DNA of 64,000 nucleotides from Phyllobacterium sp. YR531 (lineage in GTDB: Bacteria; Pseudomonadota; Alphaproteobacteria; Rhizobiales; Rhizobiaceae). The number at the start of each line of letters is the position of its first letter. The first letter of the stretch is position 1. Both the position numbers and the translations under genes were made by a program. Below, in pieces: positions 55,405 to 64,000 of this stretch. The notes beneath the pieces were generated by a model that was given only the letters and a program-made list of their open reading frames with translations, did no database searches and had not been told where the DNA came from. Where the stretch lies: contig NZ_AKIZ01000022.1 of NCBI RefSeq assembly GCF_000282595.1, positions 124,001-188,000 of the forward strand, given 5' to 3'.

Positions 55405-55959
55405 TTGTTTGCATCAAACCATATACTGAAGGCGGGAAATCAACTGACCAAATCAAAAGGCTTTAGTCCGTCATTTCGGGTACTGCACTGGATTATTGCG
55501 ATGCTTGTTTTCGCGGTGTGGCCTCTCGGCATGCTGCTCAAATACTTCAAGGACGACGTAAAACTCGACTTTTATCTCTTGCATGAATCATTCGGATTTC
55601 TGGTGCTGTGGCTCATGCTGCTCCGGTTGGGAATGCGGTTGAGCCAAGGTCGGCCAGCACATCACGATGACTGGACCGGTATTATATCAAGGATAGTTCA
55701 CTGGTTGTTATACGTCGCGTTGATCGTCATGCCAGTCAGCGGTTTCCTGGCCACAAATGCGCACGGTTTTCCTCTCCGATGGTTTGGCGTAGTTCCAGTT
55801 TGGAGTCCGATTGGGCGCGAACCTACGATTGCCCCAATCTTTAGCATTGTTCACTCAGGCACTGCATGGCTAATTCTAACCTTGGTTGGGTTACATATTG
55901 CAGGAGCACTGTTCCATCGAATAATTCGCAGAGACGATGTTTTTCAAAGGATGCTTTAA
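55405..55959 (+). CDS. Cytochrome b561-family protein
   Basis: Four-helix inner-membrane di-haem electron carrier, about 184 residues. Haem-ligand histidines appear in the expected helices: FRVLHWIIAM, LLHESFGFLVLW, SRIVHWLLY and FSIVHSGTAW, with a late GLHIAGALFHR. The DUF/CybB length is matched. No ATG is available in frame; TTG 55405 is used and the start is uncertain. Members pass electrons from quinols or superoxide to periplasmic acceptors. The stop shares TTAA with the convergent methyltransferase gene. No functional link to neighbours is obvious. Confidence 0.83.
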   Translation: MFASNHILKAGNQLTKSKGFSPSFRVLHWIIAMLVFAVWPLGMLLKYFKDDVKLDFYLLHESFGFLVLWLMLLRLGMRLSQGRPAHHDDWTGIISRIVHWLLYVALIVMPVSGFLATNAHGFPLRWFGVVPVWSPIGREPTIAPIFSIVHSGTAWLILTLVGLHIAGALFHRIIRRDDVFQRML

Positions 55960-56738
55960 ACAGGTAAAGCGAGAATATCGCAGTGGCCGACGACGCAGCC
56001 AGTACCAGCTTTCCCGATACGAAACTCCAACCAATTTACGATTGTTTCTCGTGCCAACATGACAGTTTCAGCAACTGCAGAAGCTAATCCATCAACGAAT
56101 ATTTGATGAAGTTCGACGGCATCTTCGTCAATTCTCCAGTCACTTTGGGCAACTTCAACATGGTAACCAATTTTTGTGAATAATGCAGTTAAAGCACGGG
56201 AAGATTCAGGACCGAGAGCTGGCCCAAGTCCCTTATCGGAACGCTGGTGGTCGTTGAACAATTTAACCACGGCAGCATCATCAGGGTGGGGGACATCGAA
56301 CATGATCTTCCCATTGTAATTTAAAGCAGCATATAGACCAATTCTATGTCTGGAGAGTTCATCTGCAAGCCTTTCGATAAATGCATTCGAACAAAGATCG
56401 AAAAGCGCCGACGCGCTAACAAGATCAGCTTCTCTTAGGCCCAGAAATGCCAAATCATTAAGGTCGGCGTTTTGGTAAATAATGTTGTTTTTTTGCTGAT
56501 GACGCCGAGCGGCCTGTTCAAGCAGACGTTCATCGAGGTCAACCAACCGCCAATTTGCGTCAGGAATTAGCGGTGCGATAGCTCTGTATGTCGATCCGGT
56601 ACCACTTCCTAAGTCCACGATAGTCTGCCGCTTTGCTTTTCGAACAAATTGAGCAGCCTTTTCCAGTAAGGTCCAATCGCGTGCGCGTCCATCTACCGGC
56701 TCACGCAGATCAAGCCAATGGATATCAAATCCGCTCAT
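55956..56738 (-). CDS. Class I SAM-dependent methyltransferase
   Basis: Predicted cytoplasmic methyltransferase of 260 residues. Motif I is VDLGSGTGST (residues 41-50), followed by WRLVDLDERLLEQAA (acidic ribose contact) and IYQNADLNDL. ATG 56738 has AAAAGG upstream and overlaps the glycosyltransferase gene by 14 bp; the frame extending to 56858 lies within that gene. It is the last gene of a four-gene operon with a glycosyltransferase, a PTPS-fold protein and a dehydrogenase. The acceptor is unknown; by context it is a small molecule or glycoside. Confidence 0.84.
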   Translation of the reverse strand: MSGFDIHWLDLREPVDGRARDWTLLEKAAQFVRKAKRQTIVDLGSGTGSTYRAIAPLIPDANWRLVDLDERLLEQAARRHQQKNNIIYQNADLNDLAFLGLREADLVSASALFDLCSNAFIERLADELSRHRIGLYAALNYNGKIMFDVPHPDDAAVVKLFNDHQRSDKGLGPALGPESSRALTALFTKIGYHVEVAQSDWRIDEDAVELHQIFVDGLASAVAETVMLARETIVNWLEFRIGKAGTGCVVGHCDILALPV

Positions 56739-57780
56739 TCGCTGCCTTTTCCAACACCTCCGAGAATAGTTTTCCAGTGTCTGTCCACGATGGTAGTAAT
56801 TTACTTTGACGGAATGAAGCCTCTGCCATTCCGTTTGCCAATTCGCGGTCGGTAACAATGCGTTTCAAAGCGTTGGCAAAAGCATCTGAATCATCTGGGG
56901 CGACAAGTATGCCAGCATCGGCGGGAACAACCTCTGATACCGCCCCTGCATCGCAGGCAACAATTGGCAGACCAAGTGATAATGCCTCGGCGAAGACCAT
57001 TCCATATCCCTCATATCGGCTCGCAAGTGCGAAAATATCAGATCGGGTGAATTCACTGCGAACATCGTCTATCTGTCCCACCAACACAACACGATCGCTA
57101 AGTTGGTTCTCTATGATTTGTTGTTGTAGCGTAGCGTCACAATGGGCATCCATGGTGCGGCTGCCTACAATCCTGCATTCCCAAGCCAGATGTTTGATTT
57201 TGTTCAATGCTGCAACGAGCACGTCGTAACCCTTACGGGGTATGATAGAGCCAACACTTAAAATAATCGGGACTTGTGAGGTTCGCTCAGCTTGAACATT
57301 TTGTTCGGTACCAGGTTTTGCCACGACGATCTTGGCGCCTGGAACATCATAATTTTCTATGAGCTGTTGACAGGTAGATGAAGACGTAACGAACACGGTA
57401 CTCGCGTGTTTCAACGCAAGGCGTTCAGAAGCCAACAGCGTACTTTGCTCCTGTTCCGTAATATTGCCTTCGGATGCAAGCGGGTGATGGACGAGTGCTA
57501 TGAAAGTAATTCTCTGCGCTAGGCGTTTTGCAATATCTCCGAGAGCTCCATAAGCCAAACCATCTATCAGTACGAGCGACTTTTCCGGTAAAGCGCCTAA
57601 CATCTCTTCCGTTCGCAGAATAGTATCATGGTCTGGAAAGGGGTACCCGGCACCAAGCGGAACCAAGTCTACATGCCATCCTAGATTGCGTAATTCCGAG
57701 ATGACTTTCCGATCATAGCCGTAGCCTCCGGTTTTAGCTTCTAGATCACCTGGGTAGGCAAAATATACCGAATGTTTCAC
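56725..57780 (-). CDS. Glycosyltransferase (GT4-type, GT-B fold)
   Basis: Retaining GT-B glycosyltransferase of 351 residues with no signal or membrane helix. The C-terminal donor domain is clear: VPIILSVGSIIPRKGYDVLVAAL, then SRYEGYGMVFAEALSLGLPIVACDAGAVSEVV (landmarks: YEGYGMVFAEAL, the E-x7-E region). The GTG start at 57780 overlaps the PTPS-fold gene (GTGA) and follows GAGGCAG. Sugar and acceptor are unknown. The operon context with a methyltransferase and oxidoreductase suggests decoration of a small metabolite or lipid precursor rather than a large polysaccharide. Confidence 0.87.
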   Translation of the reverse strand: MKHSVYFAYPGDLEAKTGGYGYDRKVISELRNLGWHVDLVPLGAGYPFPDHDTILRTEEMLGALPEKSLVLIDGLAYGALGDIAKRLAQRITFIALVHHPLASEGNITEQEQSTLLASERLALKHASTVFVTSSSTCQQLIENYDVPGAKIVVAKPGTEQNVQAERTSQVPIILSVGSIIPRKGYDVLVAALNKIKHLAWECRIVGSRTMDAHCDATLQQQIIENQLSDRVVLVGQIDDVRSEFTRSDIFALASRYEGYGMVFAEALSLGLPIVACDAGAVSEVVPADAGILVAPDDSDAFANALKRIVTDRELANGMAEASFRQSKLLPSWTDTGKLFSEVLEKAANERI

Positions 57781-58175
57781 AGATCTGCCTCATACCACCC
57801 GCGGGCAATGTGCGATTCATTCAGTAGTACCCTGATCTTGCAAATACGCTGACTTCCTTTACCAAAATCACCCGATAGCACGGCGGCTGCAAGCTGGTCG
57901 AATATGTACTTGGCAAGCACTTCAGTCGTGGTAATCTTGCCAGCGAACTCTTTCATTACGTCTAGGTTCTGGTAGTTGAGTGGCTGCAAAACCTTTGACA
58001 AGACAGTCGTTGCCAACCCTATGTCGACGGCCAAACCATCCTCGTCCAACTCCTTTGTAAAGAAGGCTGCATCGACAACAAATGTTGCGCCGTGCATTGC
58101 CTGCGCTGGTCCGAACACCGGGCGTTGCAGGCTGTGAGCAATCATAACGTGATCACGAACTTCAATGGCAAACAT
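57777..58175 (-). CDS. 6-pyruvoyl-tetrahydropterin synthase-fold protein with altered active site
   Basis: T-fold protein of 132 residues related to PTPS/QueD (6-carboxytetrahydropterin synthase). ATG 58175 follows GGAGGAACATTC. Typical landmarks remain: IAHSL (His14), GLAVDIG, ITTTEVLAKYIFDQL and the late VLLNESHIARGWYE. But the usual Cys-x3-His-Gly-His is AQAMHGA here: His28 stays while the Cys position is Ala24 and the third zinc His is Ala30, and the Asp-His pair before LN is missing (LQPLN). Ordinary PTPS or QueD catalysis is therefore doubtful. It lies between the BchC-like dehydrogenase and glycosyltransferase genes. Confidence 0.83.
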   Translation of the reverse strand: MFAIEVRDHVMIAHSLQRPVFGPAQAMHGATFVVDAAFFTKELDEDGLAVDIGLATTVLSKVLQPLNYQNLDVMKEFAGKITTTEVLAKYIFDQLAAAVLSGDFGKGSQRICKIRVLLNESHIARGWYEADL

Positions 58176-58194
58176 GAATGTTCCTCCGAAAGGT

Positions 58195-59178
58195 TCAGTA
58201 GACAATTCGGTGACAGAGTGTGGACGGTGATCCGAGAATTTCACCGTACTGTTGATCAAGCTCATCAAAAGGTGTTTCCCCGGAAAACAACGCGTCAAGT
58301 CTGCTGTCCGTCAACAGAGAGATTGCTGTACGAAGACGTCTTGTTGATGTCCAGCGTGCGCTCCGCCCCGCGGCTATTTTGCCGACTTGGGAACTTGCAA
58401 TAGAGAGTCGTTTTGAGTGGAAGCGTCCCCCAAGCGAGATTTCTACTTTTTTATCGCCGTACCAGCTTGCTTCTACAATACGTCCCTCGTAGCCAGCACA
58501 TTCGAACGCTTGATTAAGAGCTACGGCAGAGGCCGATGCATTGATCACCACGTCGCAATTGCGTGGTGTATCGTTCACCGATCCAAATGCGACTCCAAGA
58601 TGTCCAGCGACGTTCTTTCGGTCGGTATTGATGTCGATAAGAGTGGTTTCAGTACCGATAATACCCGTTGCAAGATAGGCAGTGAGCAATCCGACAATTC
58701 CGCCACCAAATACCACAACTCGATCACCGGGAAGTATGCTGGCATCCCAGATGATGTTGAGGGCGGTTTCCATATTTGCTGCCAATACAGCACGTTCAGG
58801 GGGAACAGCAGAGGGAATGACATACAGGTCAGTCGCTTCGACGACAAAATGCGTCTGGTGGGGATGAAGACAAAAGGCCGTGCAACCAAGAAGCTCTTGC
58901 GGCCCTGCCTGAACATTACCAACGACAGAATAGCCGTACTTAATAGGGAAGGCGAAGGTGCCTTCCTGATGAGGGCAGGCCATGGTTTCAAATTCACTTT
59001 GAGGGACATTGCCATTGAACACAAGTGATTCTGTACCACGGCTTATTGATCCATACTGCGCTCTTATCAGTATTTTACCACTGTTGAAGGGTGGCATTTT
59101 TGCGGTTCGCAAGGAGCAAACTCCCCGCTGGTCAATCCATAAAGCACGGGCTGATCTGTCTGAAAATTCCTGCGTCAC
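58195..59178 (-). CDS. BchC-like medium-chain dehydrogenase/reductase
   Basis: NAD(P)-dependent MDR-fold protein of 327 residues. The cofactor site is VVVFGGGIVGLLTAYLA in the second half. SRGTES (residues 46-51) and KYGYSVVG (80-87) replace the Cys and Gly-His-Glu zinc motifs of classical alcohol dehydrogenases; the same pattern is known in bacteriochlorophyllide dehydrogenase BchC. No photosynthesis genes are present, so it must act on another hydroxylated substrate. GTG start at 59178. First gene of the four-gene minus-strand operon, 19 bp before the PTPS-fold gene, divergent from a CDP-alcohol phosphatidyltransferase. Confidence 0.83.
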   Translation of the reverse strand: MTQEFSDRSARALWIDQRGVCSLRTAKMPPFNSGKILIRAQYGSISRGTESLVFNGNVPQSEFETMACPHQEGTFAFPIKYGYSVVGNVQAGPQELLGCTAFCLHPHQTHFVVEATDLYVIPSAVPPERAVLAANMETALNIIWDASILPGDRVVVFGGGIVGLLTAYLATGIIGTETTLIDINTDRKNVAGHLGVAFGSVNDTPRNCDVVINASASAVALNQAFECAGYEGRIVEASWYGDKKVEISLGGRFHSKRLSIASSQVGKIAAGRSARWTSTRRLRTAISLLTDSRLDALFSGETPFDELDQQYGEILGSPSTLCHRIVY

Positions 59179-59334
59179 TGCACAACCACTCTTTCTGCGT
59201 TACTCACGTTAGTCTTATAGAATGCCAGATGAAAGAAGGTGTTAGGTGACCACGTCACTTTTTATTGAGATTGCAAGCTTAGTGAGATGTTGCACATTTA
59301 TAGTAGTCAGCTAATGCTGGTTGCGGAGTGAAAA

Positions 59335-60093
59335 ATGACGGTAGAGACGGCAAACAGCATCAATACTCGTGAATTATCGCCACTCATTCAGAGTTCGCTT
59401 ATCACTTTGACCATTATCAGCGGCTTGGTGTGTGGGGCTTCCATTTGCTTGATGTATACAAGCAACCTCAGTTGGTGCTTCCCGCTATTTTCCATAACAG
59501 CGTATCTGTTGTCCGGTGTGTTCGTTTTGGCAAACTTGAGAGACTATCCTCATCGGCGCTTTGGTCCTGCCAACGCTGTTACGGCAATTAGGTCGGGTAT
59601 CACCTGTTTAATCGCCGGAACTCTTTTCGAGGCCGAACAGCTTACCAATACGACAATAGCGTGGGGAGTGGTGTCGGCGGCGGTGCTTGCCTTGCTTCTC
59701 GATGGTGTTGACGGCTACCTGGCTCGGCGTTCCTCGACAAATTCTGATTTTGGCGCGCGTTACGACATGGAGGTAGATGCAGCCTTGATCTTGTGTCTGT
59801 CGGTTTTGGTATATTTATCCGGGAAGGCAGATTGGTGGGTCATACTGATTGGAAGCATGCGCTATCTGTTTATAGTGGCACAACATTTTGATGCCCGACT
59901 TCAAGGGGAGTTGACGCCTGCGTGGAGGCGGCAAGTAATATGTGTGTTGCAGGTAATATGCCTTGGTATAATCCTGATACCGTCAATCGAGGCATCAGTT
60001 TCATCGCTGATTGCAGGGCTTAGCCTTGTTATGCTGAGTTACTCTTTCGGTCGCGACATCGTCTCATTGCTCCGTCAACCTACACCCCGTTAA
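59335..60093 (+). CDS. CDP-alcohol phosphatidyltransferase family protein
   Basis: Integral membrane enzyme joining a CDP-activated lipid or alcohol to an alcohol headgroup, 252 residues and about six helices. The full catalytic motif D-x2-DG-x2-AR-x8-G-x3-D-x3-D is present at residues 123-148 (DGVDGYLAR, then D at 144 and 148). The product is unknown; candidates are phosphatidylglycerol-phosphate, phosphatidylinositol-like or other headgroups. GGAG lies before ATG 59335. It converges on the flippase-like gene (shared TTAA) and diverges from the dehydrogenase operon. Confidence 0.88.
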   Translation: MTVETANSINTRELSPLIQSSLITLTIISGLVCGASICLMYTSNLSWCFPLFSITAYLLSGVFVLANLRDYPHRRFGPANAVTAIRSGITCLIAGTLFEAEQLTNTTIAWGVVSAAVLALLLDGVDGYLARRSSTNSDFGARYDMEVDAALILCLSVLVYLSGKADWWVILIGSMRYLFIVAQHFDARLQGELTPAWRRQVICVLQVICLGIILIPSIEASVSSLIAGLSLVMLSYSFGRDIVSLLRQPTPR

Positions 60094-61016
60094 CGGATAC
60101 GGAAAGGAAACTGCACAAGCAAGCCGAGGCCGGGTAATGCACCCAAAGTAACAATTACGCCATATAGCACACTGGCCGCAACACCTTGGCTTGCGGTCAG
60201 GCCTAGCAAAGGCCAGAGCATAGCGGCGGCGGCTTCGCGCGTTCCCCAGCCGCCAACAGTTATAGGAAGAGCCATAGTTAAAAGGCTTAGCGGGATTACT
60301 GTTATCAAGCCGATTACTGGAAGCGGAGCGCCGATGGCATTGGATGCCGTAGCAAAAACAGCGATATAGCTGGCGACGATGGTCAGACTGAGCGCACCTT
60401 GAACAAGCCATGCATAAGGAAGACCATAACAAGCAAATATGCTGCGCCCAATTTTCCGAATGAATTTACGCCACCAAAATGAACCGGAAAACCATACCAG
60501 CAAAGTCGCAACCGTTGCGAAAACTAGAATACCAAGCGCCACAAACAATAGAGTCAGTGCCTCGGATGGGCCCATTCCACCATTGAAGAACGGCCATGCA
60601 ATCAAGCCAATTGCGCCGACGAGGAGCAGGGCAATCTGTCCTGCAAATCGTTCTAACAAGATTGCCAGAACTGGGGTGCTCCATTTTTTGTCCGCCGAGC
60701 GACTACGAGCTGCCCGAATTACATCGCCAGCCATACCGCCTGGCAACGTCATGTTCACCAATGATCCAAGATAATAGTCGGCAATTGCTTGGGTGGGTTG
60801 CAGTGGATGGTCAAGTCGAGCGGCGGTGTAACACCAGCGCAAGGCGGATAGTACTATCTGAACTTGTACAAGGAAGATTCCAACAAGAACAAGTTCGGGT
60901 TTCGCACTACTCAAGCTTGCCATAATTGCCCTAGTGTCCGACAGGACAAAGGCTAGTACAACGAGGGTTATGCCGAAAACCGCTGTAGCAACATTTCTCC
61001 ATTTGCCGGAAATCAT
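60090..61016 (-). CDS. Lysylphosphatidylglycerol synthase-type transmembrane flippase (UPF0104-like)
   Basis: Polytopic inner-membrane protein of 308 residues with eight or so hydrophobic segments. LSALRWCYTAARLD, DYYLGSLVNMTLPGGMAGDVIRAAR and ALPITVGGWGTREAA are signatures of the LPG_synthase_TM/UPF0104 family, whose members flip or help translocate (glyco)lipids. No catalytic domain is fused. It is convergent with the CDP-alcohol phosphatidyltransferase gene and divergent from the sulfatase-fold gene with 71 bp between the starts, which suggests a lipid-export module. Confidence 0.86.
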   Translation of the reverse strand: MISGKWRNVATAVFGITLVVLAFVLSDTRAIMASLSSAKPELVLVGIFLVQVQIVLSALRWCYTAARLDHPLQPTQAIADYYLGSLVNMTLPGGMAGDVIRAARSRSADKKWSTPVLAILLERFAGQIALLLVGAIGLIAWPFFNGGMGPSEALTLLFVALGILVFATVATLLVWFSGSFWWRKFIRKIGRSIFACYGLPYAWLVQGALSLTIVASYIAVFATASNAIGAPLPVIGLITVIPLSLLTMALPITVGGWGTREAAAAMLWPLLGLTASQGVAASVLYGVIVTLGALPGLGLLVQFPFRIR

Positions 61017-61087
61017 ATGCTTGGTTGGCCCTCGGTTTAAATGTTGTAATCAGACGGTATTCGGCGGCACAAAATGATATTGAACAC

Positions 61088-62695
61088 ATGAAACATCAGG
61101 CACTTATCTTCTTTAAATTTTTCTGCGGTGCGATGGGCCGGTTACAGATGCCATTTGCCATTGTCATGCTCTTGTTGATCTTGAATTTGCCAACCAGTAT
61201 GGCGGATTTGCAAGTTAAAAGCTTTATCAAGTTGCAGATCGAATTGCTGGTTATTGTCCTCTTTCTAGCTGGGGTCGGAGCCAGATATTTTAAAGCAGCG
61301 CGACTGGCTGTTACAATTATCCTATCGCTCGTGTTGTTGTTGAAACTAGCAGATATTGCGACTTATGCTGCCTTTTCGCGTCAATTTAATCCATTATTTG
61401 ACTTGAAACTGCTATTTGATGGATGGAATGTTCTAACGGCAACGATAGGTCTGGTAGAGGCGTGGATTCTTGCCTCACTCATATTTCTTTGTTTCGTTTT
61501 TTTCATAGTTCTTGTCTATTGGTCTTTAGGGTCGTTTCGAGACACAAGAATTGCTATCCCATTAGCTTTGGGAGTGCTGATAAGTTTGGCCATTGCGTTT
61601 TCTTACCCGGGTAACGGTTGGATCGAGACTCGAACGTCCGAGCTGGTAGTTGATCGGGTTGCGATCGTTCAAAAGTCTTTAAGGGACAAACAGGCTTTTG
61701 AAGCCTTGCTTGAGAGAGACACGGCATCTGATGTCCCACTGGACCAACGCTTTGATGCGCTTCAAGGCAAGGACATAATTGTCGTTTTCATCGAGTCTTA
61801 CGGTGAGAGCGTAGTACGCGATCCGCGTTACTCAAATCTGATCAGCAAACGATTAGCAAATGTGGAGCAGCAAATCTCAGTTGCAGGATTAACATCCAAA
61901 AGTAGTTGGCTTCTATCGCCGACATCAGGAGGACTGAGTTGGCTAGCCCATGGAACGTTACTGTCAGGTGTTTGGGTGGACAGCCAACAGCGTTATACCC
62001 AACTGATCGAGAGCAAACGACCAAGCTTGAACAGATTATTTCAAGAAGCTGGCTGGCGCAGTGTCGCCGTTATGCCTGCTATTACCATGGACTGGCCGGA
62101 AGGCAATTATTTCGGTTACGACACGGTCTATGCCGCAAACAACCTCGGTTATAAAGGCAAGCCGTTCAATTGGGTCACCATGCCCGATCAGTACACGCTT
62201 TCAGCATTTCAAAACTTGGAGCGCAACGGTCCACATAAGCCTCTCATGGCTGAGATTGCTCTCATTTCCAGCCACGCACCTTGGACTCCTATACCTCATC
62301 TGGTTGATTGGTTGGAGGTCGGCGATGGGACGATCTTTAACGCGCAGGCTATCGCTGGTGAATCTCCTGAAATTGTGTGGCAGGATCACGAGCGGGTACG
62401 AGCGCAATACGCGGCTTCCATAGACTACGCGCTGGAAACTTTAGGGTCGTATATGGCGAGATATGGACGCAATACGGTCTTCATACTCTTGGGAGATCAT
62501 CAACCGGCTCCAATAATTACTGGGAACAACGCTTCTCGTGCCGTTCCCATCCATATTGTGTCCGATGATTCCGCGTTGCTGGAAAGACTCGATTCTAAAA
62601 AATGGAATCGCGGCATGATGCCTGAAACTCAAACAGCTGAACCTATGGACGGATTTCGTCAGGAATTACTCAGAAAATTCAGCAGTAAAAATTAA
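61088..62695 (+). CDS. LtaS/phosphoglycerol-transferase-like sulfatase-fold membrane protein
   Basis: Membrane-anchored alkaline-phosphatase-superfamily protein. ATG 61088 gives 536 residues; TTG 61025 is an in-frame alternative. Five N-terminal membrane segments (about residues 20-175) precede a periplasmic catalytic domain: VVFIESYGES (metal-ligand Glu near residue 235), LSPTSGGLSWLAHGTLLSG (nucleophile region), SSHAPWTPIPHL and ILLGDHQPAP (metal ligands near 470). This layout is that of lipoteichoic-acid synthase, OpgB and EptA-type transferases rather than simple sulfatases. It likely moves phosphoglycerol or another phospho-group onto an exported lipid or glycan. Paired with the adjacent flippase and CDP-alcohol phosphatidyltransferase. 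Confidence 0.87.
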   Translation: MKHQALIFFKFFCGAMGRLQMPFAIVMLLLILNLPTSMADLQVKSFIKLQIELLVIVLFLAGVGARYFKAARLAVTIILSLVLLLKLADIATYAAFSRQFNPLFDLKLLFDGWNVLTATIGLVEAWILASLIFLCFVFFIVLVYWSLGSFRDTRIAIPLALGVLISLAIAFSYPGNGWIETRTSELVVDRVAIVQKSLRDKQAFEALLERDTASDVPLDQRFDALQGKDIIVVFIESYGESVVRDPRYSNLISKRLANVEQQISVAGLTSKSSWLLSPTSGGLSWLAHGTLLSGVWVDSQQRYTQLIESKRPSLNRLFQEAGWRSVAVMPAITMDWPEGNYFGYDTVYAANNLGYKGKPFNWVTMPDQYTLSAFQNLERNGPHKPLMAEIALISSHAPWTPIPHLVDWLEVGDGTIFNAQAIAGESPEIVWQDHERVRAQYAASIDYALETLGSYMARYGRNTVFILLGDHQPAPIITGNNASRAVPIHIVSDDSALLERLDSKKWNRGMMPETQTAEPMDGFRQELLRKFSSKN

Positions 62696-63011: not shown

Positions 63012-64000
63012 TTACTCATATTTTCTTTCGTCTGAAATCACCTTTCCATCATTTGGCAAGGTGCCGGGTGGTACGATTTGTACCTTGCCCCTTAGCTTTG
63101 TTGCGTCAAAAAGTGCGTTCGCAATGGAATCAGTGTTGTCGGCGTGGGTCTGCTCGACCATTAAAGTCATAGAATCCTGTTCATTTGCCCGGGTAACAAT
63201 CAATCTCAACCGACCTGGTGCAGAAATCCTTTTACTGATCAAATCAATCTGTTCGGGCCGTACAAACATGCCTTTGATTTTAGTCGTTTGATCCGCGCGA
63301 CCAAGCCAGCCTTTAATCCGCAGGTTCGTGCGCCCATCCGGGCTCGGTTCATCGATAATGCAAGAAAGGTCGCCTGTGGCAAACCTGAATAGCGGATAAT
63401 CTCGATTTGCCCGGGTAATTACAATCTCGCCCACTTCTCCGTGGGGGATACTCTCGCATGTGCCAGGACGCACAATTTCTAACAGGATGCCTTCATTAAT
63501 TACCATCCCCGGAGAATCACCCTCATAGGCAATGATGCCAAGATCGGCAGTGCCGTAACATTGCCTGACCGTTATTCCTCGTTCTTCCAATTCTTCGCGC
63601 AGTGATGTTGGAAGGGCCGCTCCTGATACAAGCGCCCGTCTGAGAAAACTTGTATCGCGACCAGTTTCCCTCGCTTTGTCGAGCAGGATTTTCAGGAAGT
63701 CCGGCGTGCCGACATAGGTATTTGGCCGATACTGGGCAATTGCCATAAGTTGATCGGCGGTGTTTCCCGGGCCAGCAGGAATAACTGCACAGCCCAACGC
63801 ATGGGCGCCACTTTCAAACATTGCACCGGCGGGTGTCAGGTGGTACGAAAACGTATTGAGAACAACATCTCCTTTTCTCACCCCGGCGGCATATAAGGCC
63901 CGCGCAGAACCCCACCAATCTCTGCCATGCCCTTCCGGATCGAATATCGGCCCGGGGGATATGAAAAGGCGAGCTAGATCGCCGAGAGAACTTGCATTGA
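63012..64000 (-). CDS. PaaK-like AMP-dependent ligase (partial, N-terminus outside window)
   Basis: Adenylate-forming enzyme of the phenylacetate-CoA ligase family, which activates carboxylic acids with ATP and CoA. The frame remains open to the right edge (through LFISPGPIFDPEG before the first internal GTG at 63881), so the gene is cut and only 328 C-terminal residues are visible. Motifs: NTFSYHLTPAGAMFE, ALVSGAALPTSLREELEE, QCYGTADLGIIAYE, YPLFRFATGDLS and KIKGMFVRPEQIDLI. Substrate unknown. It is the same strand as the 51-residue gene. Confidence 0.88.
   Translation of the reverse strand, partial: NASSLGDLARLFISPGPIFDPEGHGRDWWGSARALYAAGVRKGDVVLNTFSYHLTPAGAMFESGAHALGCAVIPAGPGNTADQLMAIAQYRPNTYVGTPDFLKILLDKARETGRDTSFLRRALVSGAALPTSLREELEERGITVRQCYGTADLGIIAYEGDSPGMVINEGILLEIVRPGTCESIPHGEVGEIVITRANRDYPLFRFATGDLSCIIDEPSPDGRTNLRIKGWLGRADQTTKIKGMFVRPEQIDLISKRISAPGRLRLIVTRANEQDSMTLMVEQTHADNTDSIANALFDATKLRGKVQIVPPGTLPNDGKVISDERKYE

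Follow-up and report, generated by a model that had tools for sequence, protein, structure and literature searches.

The window, by which we mean the whole stretch of 64,000 nucleotides of Phyllobacterium sp. YR531 DNA analysed here, contains a block of four genes for a medium-chain dehydrogenase (DH), a PTPS-fold protein (PTPS), a family-4 glycosyltransferase (GT) and a methyltransferase (MT), and this block is a real unit whose conservation in other genomes goes far beyond chance. We give about even chances to the proposal that the cluster in the window is a pared-down version of a widespread one, which would make a GTP-derived headgroup and couple it to a phospholipid. A search of the open-licence literature yielded no recognised description of such a cluster, no product, substrate or assay for it, and no mention of SCO6650, the closest structural relative of PTPS.

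Gene content and conservation of the four-gene block

The seven genes from MT to the LtaS-like transferase (SULF) are present where the first-pass annotation had placed them, and ORFs and profile matches agree with the broad families that it had named (Table 1). Its description of four overlapping minus-strand genes holds in so far as they form a tight operon, but most of the overlaps are artefacts that stem from the start codons of the longest ORFs. The MT start was placed at the ATG at 56738, where the homologues begin (longest ORF, 55956-56858), and that of PTPS was set by homologue support and an ATG (longest ORF, 57777-58298); with homologue-supported starts the PTPS/DH overlap is gone, the PTPS/GT overlap measures 4 bp and that of GT and MT about 14 bp. 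For SULF, the longest ORF runs from 61025. The membrane genes do not form the single divergent unit previously described, since CDP and SULF lie on the plus strand but the UPF0104 gene (FLP) lies on the minus strand, its end and that of the CDP gene overlapping by 4 bp. The dehydrogenase had been called BchC-like; a distant resemblance to BchC is indeed the best that NCBIfam offers, but a score of 52.4 bits against the TIGR01202 cut-off of 291 led us to reject the link. The cytochrome b561 gene is possibly part of the same system, as a recurrent neighbour of the block.

Table 1. Genes of the window considered in this study, with the profile matches that support their families.
Gene	Product	Coordinates	Strand	Profile match
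b561	Cytochrome b561-family protein	55405..55959	+	PF01292, 6e-28
MT	Class I SAM-dependent methyltransferase	55956..56738	-	PF13649, 8e-11
GT	Family-4 glycosyltransferase	56725..57780	-	PF00534, 1e-31
PTPS	SCO6650-type PTPS-fold protein, canonical catalytic residues lost	57777..58175	-	PF01242, 1.6e-19, over cut-off
DH	Medium-chain dehydrogenase, distant from BchC	58195..59178	-	ADH_zinc_N, below cut-off
CDP	CDP-alcohol phosphatidyltransferase	59335..60093	+	PF01066, 5.6e-16
FLP	UPF0104 / LPG_synthase_TM flippase-like membrane protein	60090..61016	-	PF03706, 1.1e-34
SULF	LtaS-like alkaline-phosphatase-superfamily membrane phosphotransferase	61088..62695	+	PF00884, 3.5e-8

The genome collection holds at least 583 relatives of PTPS, and the best 80 of these at least 583 served for the locus counts; 17 of the 80 loci were left out for short flanks, which leaves 63 named full-flank loci. 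Matches of 100 bits or less are excluded from the resulting co-occurrence counts, and some of these loci also went into building the HMMs. All four genes of the block are present in 52 of the 63 full-flank loci (GT in 56, DH in 61), so that the block is borne out as a conserved unit. Among the Hyphomicrobiales loci examined, 18 of 20 keep the same four genes in the same order; DH is displaced in one of the exceptions (L054), and the other (L055) has a displaced GT and yielded no MT. Genomes of other classes with matches were likewise included (five of six examined; G307 left out), and the actinobacterial loci L152, L162 and L176-L180 bring together CDP, DH, PTPS, GT, MT, FLP, a creatininase and RibA. 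PTPS also occurs as an orphan, namely in three (L153, L159, L160) of the 13 plasmid matches examined out of 20, whereas a plasmid of the root-nodule isolate Rhizobium sp. SL42 (L156) bears the full cluster. The strict glycosyltransferase pattern EGYG...AEA fits 67 of the 118 GT matches.

A PTPS-fold protein with replaced catalytic residues

The fold of the PTPS protein was confirmed with an AlphaFold model, whose target-normalised TM scores lie between 0.84 and 0.87 against the listed chains of 4ntk (QueD). With QueD/6-pyruvoyltetrahydropterin synthase (COG0720) it shares this fold, a PF01242 match and Glu161 near the C-terminus, which is invariant in the homologue alignment (L051, with a stop codon within the stretch, was left out). 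It differs from QueD in the residues of catalysis: in an alignment to 4ntk, 1b66, 3i2b and 2g64, the catalytic Cys and the third zinc His are replaced by Ala, and the Asp-His pair is mostly Asn-Tyr. The canonical C...HGH motif occurs in none of the 126 HMM matches (114 of them distinct), the residue after HG being A, G, S or T in every one, and the protein scores 33.2 bits against the cut-off of 89.25 for the QueD equivalog TIGR03367. PTPS had thus rightly been called degenerate, and we reject a canonical QueD/PTPS function in view of the residues lost in both the alignment and the motif count.

The nearest structure is that of Streptomyces coelicolor SCO6650 (3d7j; E 3.7e-40, 54% identity, TM 0.96 for the AlphaFold model), and this close match in sequence and fold places the protein in the SCO6650 subfamily. 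The 3d7j structure was released in 2008 under a title that names a PTPS homologue only. HMM matches in L176-L180 form a six-gene run, PTPS-GT-MT-FLP-creatininase-RibA, which fits SCO6650 to SCO6655 by gene number; inspection of the gaps in L176-L178 revealed no further convincing gene. Relative to the S. coelicolor system, the window cluster is without the cyclohydrolase, the creatininase and a dedicated reductase, and the LtaS-like enzyme is added. The portion of PMC5041015 considered here names the subfamilies PTPS-I to PTPS-IV, and a cluster of this kind was not found in that portion of the subfamily account.

All 11 annotated plasmid records examined label the PTPS gene as 6-carboxytetrahydropterin synthase, and nine add a queuosine GO term; the catalytic residues of PTPS contradict this label. 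The relatives in the genome collection, which are unannotated there, would be expected to receive it too. Even this more modest result is of consequence.

Partner enzymes and the membrane module

The clusters of relatives encode members of the GTP_cyclohydro2 and RibD_C families, to which RibA and RibD of the riboflavin pathway belong, but as dedicated extra copies; the 274-aa reductase of L065, for instance, consists of the RibD_C domain alone and is devoid of the deaminase domain. A RibD-C reductase is found in 46 and RibA (GTP cyclohydrolase II) in 32 of the 63 full-flank loci. Across 199 genomes of the order, 41 possess a dedicated RibD-C reductase and 40 of these 41 also possess a PTPS of the block type, the sole exception being a genome that is 56% complete (the weak PTPS matches of G088, G122, G151 and G176 were counted as absent, the shortened match of G083 as present). 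In neither the window genome nor its sister (G199) did searches find a dedicated RibD-C reductase, and each has one cyclohydrolase II only; three further genomes (G208, G212, G230) have the reductase, but again one cyclohydrolase II each. Because the window genome is without dedicated copies, these entry steps were invisible to the first-pass annotation. An HMM search of the seven creatininase loci found the RibD-C reductase in one only (L162).

The cyclohydrolases that stand beside a strong creatininase match (at least 340 bits; L152 was the seed) in actinobacterial loci all carry Met in place of the Tyr that follows K.RA in the alignment (7/7). Tyr is present in 46 of the other 48 RibA matches, among them those of L130 and L184, whose creatininase matches are weak; the remaining two (L048, L056) were unreadable. 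Creatininase-family ArfB is a deformylase. We take the Met of the creatininase-linked cyclohydrolases to be the change present in FAPy-forming SCO6655, for which Spoonamore 2006 reportedly described a Met variant of the Tyr position with FAPy as the product. PMC3509567 cites Spoonamore 2006 on Streptomyces GCH II enzymes whose activities are changed, and PMC2853524 gives SCO6655 as a GTP cyclohydrolase II.

CDP is present in 25, SULF in 21 and FLP in 19 of the 63 full-flank loci. The combination of the block with CDP, mostly together with the UPF0104 gene, is met again, though the genes are ordered differently, in Rhizobiaceae, Aureimonas/Fulvimarina, Rhodobacterales, other Pseudomonadota classes, Streptomyces and Microbacterium. 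The first-pass annotation had offered separate occurrence of the two halves as grounds for refuting its joint pathway, and this check did not refute it, given that CDP lies beside the block in these 25 loci and that Actinomycetota and other Pseudomonadota classes show the same pairing. The recurring link between the block, CDP and UPF0104 lends partial support to the putative lipid-headgroup pathway, but the membrane module is not obligatory and the entry enzymes had been missed; the strict two-halves version is weakened by PTPS-free CDP/SULF loci and by an OpgH-like alternative. An OpgH/MdoH-like gene occurs in 27 of the 63 loci, 26 of them without CDP (both genes, 1; MdoH only, 26; CDP only, 24; neither, 11-12). 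In the 199 genomes, 10 of the 16 with CDP also have PTPS (a moderate association, p 0.002; adjacent in 6 of the 16), and so do 7 of the 14 with SULF (not significant, p 0.06); both p values ignore relatedness. The CDP and SULF pair lies apart from PTPS in three genomes, in addition to those that have the pair but no PTPS.

The CDP motif D..DG..AR(8)G...D...D is intact in 51 of 52 matches, including that of the window (exception, L083), and the window protein has its best NCBIfam matches, all of them weak and under the cut-off, with pgsA and further synthases. FLP reaches 120.7 bits for PF03706 (cut-off 33.4) and 25.4 for TIGR00374 (cut-off 43.2), and may serve as a lipid flippase, the role predicted from its sequence. 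SULF combines N-terminal membrane helices with an AlkP-type domain, as judged from its predicted model and residues; E257, T300, D491 and H492 are invariant in 15 aligned rows, and we assume for them the roles of their LtaS counterparts, namely Thr nucleophile and metal ligands. The regular expression ESYG...T.GG fits 31 of 37 SULF matches. An NCBIfam search with SULF gave no match, and structure comparison gave LtaP/LtaS as the best PDB folds, with 13-15% identity to their chains among the matches listed; a putative likeness extends to OpgB, another phosphoglycerol transferase. LtaP and LtaS take a phospholipid as donor.

Proposed route and competing explanations

Most likely, the block converts a pyrimidine of the riboflavin branch, derived from GTP, into a glycosylated, methylated headgroup for attachment to a lipid. 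A GTP origin is suggested by the RibD-C and GTP cyclohydrolase II partners, by the 40/41 co-occurrence and by the Met-variant cyclohydrolases. Starting from the observed gene content, conservation, co-occurrence and intact or lost motifs, we infer each reaction, their order and the product as follows. GTP cyclohydrolase II would open GTP to 2,5-diamino-6-ribosylamino-pyrimidinone 5'-phosphate; in some Actinomycetota, the Met-variant cyclohydrolase would halt at the formylated intermediate, which a creatininase-type hydrolase would deformylate. The RibD-C reductase would then yield the ribityl form, and DH would oxidise its side chain. Deprived of canonical Cys/His/Asp chemistry, the PTPS-fold protein would work on the pyrimidine or pterin so formed. 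GT would attach a sugar, MT would add a methyl group, and the CDP-alcohol phosphatidyltransferase would couple a phosphatidyl group to a free hydroxyl. UPF0104 would flip the lipid, and the LtaS-like enzyme, where present, would transfer the phospho-headgroup to a periplasmic acceptor. In the window genome, where the dedicated reductase and cyclohydrolase are missing, the precursor would have to come from the riboflavin enzymes.

The product could instead be a soluble or exported glycosylated and methylated metabolite of the pterin or pyrimidine type (a cofactor, a signal or an antibiotic), with the membrane genes forming a separate phospholipid or periplasm module that often travels with the block. 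Such a reading would accommodate the 26 of 63 loci in which all or most of the block is found alongside an OpgH-like gene but no CDP, the 11-12 with neither, and the 6 of 199 genomes with a CDP and SULF pair but no PTPS; we consider it unlikely, since CDP and FLP stand beside the block in unrelated groups and in varied gene order, for which hitch-hiking is a poor explanation. The OpgH-like genes that take the place of CDP in PTPS loci also bear on the decoration of periplasmic glucans, in which an OpgB-like activity of the LtaS-like enzyme would carry the phospho-headgroup from the lipid to an osmoregulated periplasmic glucan, the acceptor being built through an OpgH-like gene elsewhere. In the PTPS-free loci L214, L215, L221 and L222 of one genus, CDP, SULF and FLP indeed lie beside MdoH-like and MdoG-like genes (Pfam/NCBIfam names verified on L214 only), and MdoG is present in 13 of 14 SULF genomes versus 91 of 185 others (p 0.0015, a statistic confounded by kinship). 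However, the search of the window genome found no MdoG, for which reason OpgG was also dismissed as a general partner; G037 and G038 carry CDP and the block without MdoG, and Actinomycetota, which are not known to synthesise osmoregulated periplasmic glucans, carry CDP and FLP with the block. Glucan decoration is, in our estimate, a distinctly unlikely function.

Recurrence of b561 (28 of the 63 full-flank loci, adjoining the block in the window, beside CDP/SULF in L214, L218 and L221 and beside SULF in L222, all four without the block) might point to a membrane-anchored, pterin- or flavin-like redox cofactor with the cytochrome b561 protein as its partner in electron exchange. This is improbable, as b561 is absent from the other 35 loci and was not found in L152, L162 and L175-L180, and no enzyme using such a redox cofactor was identified. 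Orphan PTPS genes and the variable membrane module are what one would see if the genes were chance neighbours with no joint function, an explanation to which we attach hardly any credence, given a block conserved across phyla, the 40/41 co-occurrence with the reductase and the core-block counts, which contradict chance.

Should the GTP-derived lipid headgroup prove true, a single pathway would give a function to the SCO6650-type PTPS, the extra RibD-C reductase, the additional copies of GTP cyclohydrolase II and the creatininases that partner them, and it would indicate a class of lipid or periplasmic headgroup, one that to our knowledge appears in no inventory. In a broader form, which we advance tentatively and hold to be somewhat unlikely, at least two phyla would make phospholipids with a glycosylated, methylated pterin or ribityl-pyrimidine headgroup from GTP via the riboflavin branch, using a PTPS-fold enzyme of new chemistry; many Alphaproteobacteria would pass headgroup and phosphate together to a periplasmic acceptor, in other lineages an OpgH-like glucan synthase would take the place of the module, and a single genus would import the precursor rather than make it. 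In L214 and L215, CDP, SULF and FLP form one run with an NMT1/THI5-type importer and a GT that is 57-60% identical to the GT of the PTPS clusters L087/L124, a gene content that looks as if an imported precursor stood in place of synthesis.

The four-gene block and its PTPS-fold protein

Seven genes were found within 55956-62695 of the window, and the broad families named for them in the first-pass annotation are backed by Pfam. Gene starts were reset by comparison with homologues, and those of the PTPS-fold protein (PTPS) and the methyltransferase (MT) were then checked on the sequence; an ATG was read at 61088 in the window sequence for the LtaS-like phosphotransferase (SULF). A 289-aa open reading frame of the window (63012-63881, minus strand) resembles PaaK-type AMP ligases, in their middle and C-terminal part only.

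Genes at the window locus, and a related run in PTPS-free genomes (L214 and L215)
Feature	Position	Strand	Remark
DH, medium-chain dehydrogenase	58195-59178	-	first in transcription order of block
PTPS-fold protein	57777-58175	-	second in transcription order; start revised from homologues
GT4 glycosyltransferase (GT)	56725-57780	-	third in transcription order
MT	55956-56738	-	last in transcription order; start revised from homologues
CDP-alcohol phosphatidyltransferase (CDP)	59335-60093	+	other side of block
UPF0104/LPG_synthase_TM protein (FLP)	60090-61016	-	other side of block
LtaS-like phosphotransferase (SULF)	61088-62695	+	other side of block
Cytochrome b561-family gene	55405-55959	+	abuts MT
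CDP, SULF, FLP, importer, GT4, FkbM run	L214:8136-16810		PTPS-free genome
CDP, SULF, FLP, importer, GT4, FkbM run	L215:1784-10477		PTPS-free genome

The four genes initially read as a tailoring operon form a conserved unit: DH, PTPS, GT and MT stand together and in order in 18 of the 20 neighbourhoods examined, the exceptions being L054, with a displaced DH, and L055, with a displaced GT and no MT found. Of 199 sampled genomes of the order, 54 encode a PTPS homologue (E <= 1e-15), as do 4 of 20 sampled Phyllobacterium genomes, the window genome counted. A scan of named genomes gave at least 583 PTPS relatives, the best 80 of which were used as loci; 63 of these have at least 6 kb on each side (the full-flank set), and scoring with profile HMMs made from clusters of called genes revealed the complete block in 52 of the 63.

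The PTPS model is good (block means of pLDDT at least 86 from residue 41 onward); it superimposes on SCO6650 with a TM score of 0.96 at 54% identity, and it also matches the QueD fold. Two His residues and the last Glu are shared with QueD and animal PTPS, but the catalytic Cys and the third zinc-binding His of those enzymes are both replaced by Ala, and their Asp-His pair is mostly Asn-Tyr. The 'degenerate PTPS' of the first-pass annotation is thus borne out; with these residues lost and the C...HGH motif present in none of 126 PTPS matches (114 distinct), a canonical QueD or PTPS identity is ruled out. A second PTPS-family gene of the window genome (G000:C35:1090-1443) scores better (100 bits) and is probably the true QueD.

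Riboflavin-type partners and probable precursor supply

The findings support a biosynthetic block that is conserved and is fed from GTP via riboflavin-type steps. The full-flank loci contain a RibD_C reductase (46/63), GTP cyclohydrolase II (RibA; 32/63), a cytochrome b561-family gene (28/63), an FkbM methyltransferase (24/63) and an inositol-phosphatase-family gene (10/63). The strongest sign that the block acts on a product of the first riboflavin steps is the co-occurrence of reductase and PTPS: a dedicated RibD_C reductase (E <= 1e-25) is encoded by 41 of 199 genomes of the order, and 40 of these also carry PTPS, the single exception (G123) being 56% complete.

At the same threshold, no dedicated reductase was found in the window genome, whose single cyclohydrolase II and single long RibD lie at G000:C19 and G000:C38, respectively; the sister genome G199 resembles it in having no dedicated reductase and a single cyclohydrolase II. 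Four weaker RibD_C-family matches (198-237 aa) lie elsewhere in the window genome, just one of which is found with the dedicated reductase as query (E 4e-4). Hence, the window block must either draw on riboflavin intermediates, take another substrate or be a remnant; decay appears disfavoured, since the open frames of the four block proteins and their 60-86% identity with those of G199 speak against it.

Fifteen loci were treated as actinobacterial (L152-L154, L159-L162 and L175-L182, the last group on the strength of the record title of the Aquiluna MAG G510). CDP is present in nine and FLP in ten, alongside all or most of the block; three are PTPS orphans, and two hold DH, PTPS and GT only. 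Seven possess a strong creatininase plus RibA, and the HMM detected a RibD_C reductase in just one of these (L162), a scarcity that argues against one uniform pathway, unless these loci rely on a divergent or distant reductase. In the alignment, RibA of all seven creatininase loci has Met at a position occupied by Tyr in 46 of 48 other matches (two unreadable); L175, a locus without creatininase, has Tyr. This Tyr-to-Met change reportedly halts the SCO6655 reaction at the formylated product (FAPy), and the creatininase-family enzyme ArfB strips such a formyl group; if so, both versions would yield the same pyrimidine. HMM matches give L176-L180 the six-gene order PTPS-GT-MT-FLP-creatininase-RibA (inspection of the gaps in L176-L178 gave no other convincing gene), a run that agrees in gene number with SCO6650-SCO6655 of S. 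coelicolor. On Streptomyces plasmids (L153, L159, L160), an orphan SCO6650-type PTPS lacks the block and neighbours cupin, MBL-fold, MEKHLA or YbaB, and BTAD-regulator genes.

The membrane module as a probable output of the block

Among the 63 full-flank loci, CDP and SULF are both present in 21, CDP alone in four and SULF alone in none, and FLP accompanies CDP in 18. An OpgH/MdoH-like gene and CDP are nearly exclusive of each other (both, 1; MdoH only, 26; CDP only, 24; neither, 12; p 2e-7). Of 52 CDP matches, 51 retain an intact motif; the SULF model combines membrane helices with an alkaline-phosphatase-type domain, is nearest to LtaP/LtaS, and has Glu257, Thr300, Asp491 and His492 invariant in an alignment of 15 rows. 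Five further loci from other Pseudomonadota classes (L183-L187, of six matching genomes) all hold CDP, FLP, DH, PTPS, GT and RibD_C, with MT detected by HMM in one.

Beside the OpgH-like gene of L113 (6053-7084, minus strand) is encoded a protein of about 340 aa that looks secreted; its type is clustered in 12 of 100 loci, and the one member scanned gave no Pfam or NCBIfam match. An OpgH-type cluster, with a PTPS 61% identical, also occurs in a MAG titled Bordetella parapertussis (L097), a title that probably reflects mis-binning.

The first-pass annotation had tentatively joined all seven genes in one pathway, in which a glycosylated, methylated headgroup is attached to a lipid, flipped and modified in the periplasm. 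CDP does recur with the block, but only 10 of the 16 CDP genomes of the order carry PTPS, adjacent in six (G000, G037, G038, G058, G095, G155) and apart in four (G055, G092, G116, G167), as do only 7 of the 14 SULF genomes (p 0.06). Besides the OpgH-like alternative, a strict joint pathway is also opposed by four PTPS-free loci from a single genus (L214, L215, L221 and L222, the CDP of L222 resting on a single search), where MdoH-like and MdoG-like genes, names checked on L214, accompany CDP, SULF and FLP. MdoG is found in 13 of 14 SULF genomes versus 91 of 185 others, and is absent from the window genome. In L214 and L215, the CDP/SULF/FLP run extends into an NMT1/THI5-type ABC importer, a GT4 and FkbM, the GT being 57-60% identical to that of the PTPS clusters L087 and L124; L221 and L222 contain no importer-GT-FkbM run in the 12 and 16 kb examined, respectively. 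A headgroup precursor might thus be imported rather than made in L214 and L215, a suggestion for which two loci of one genus provide thin evidence.

The data support the phosphatidyltransferase as a recurrent, not universal, output module of the block. The best single reading is putative headgroup synthesis followed by lipid attachment: the block would make the headgroup from the GTP-derived precursor, and CDP would attach it to a lipid. As a plausible extension, the headgroup may be transferred onward to a periplasmic acceptor in lineages with SULF. Genes of the endonuclease/exonuclease/phosphatase family turn up repeatedly next to FLP or close to the CDP/SULF run (L225:2329-3096, L214:3550-4302).
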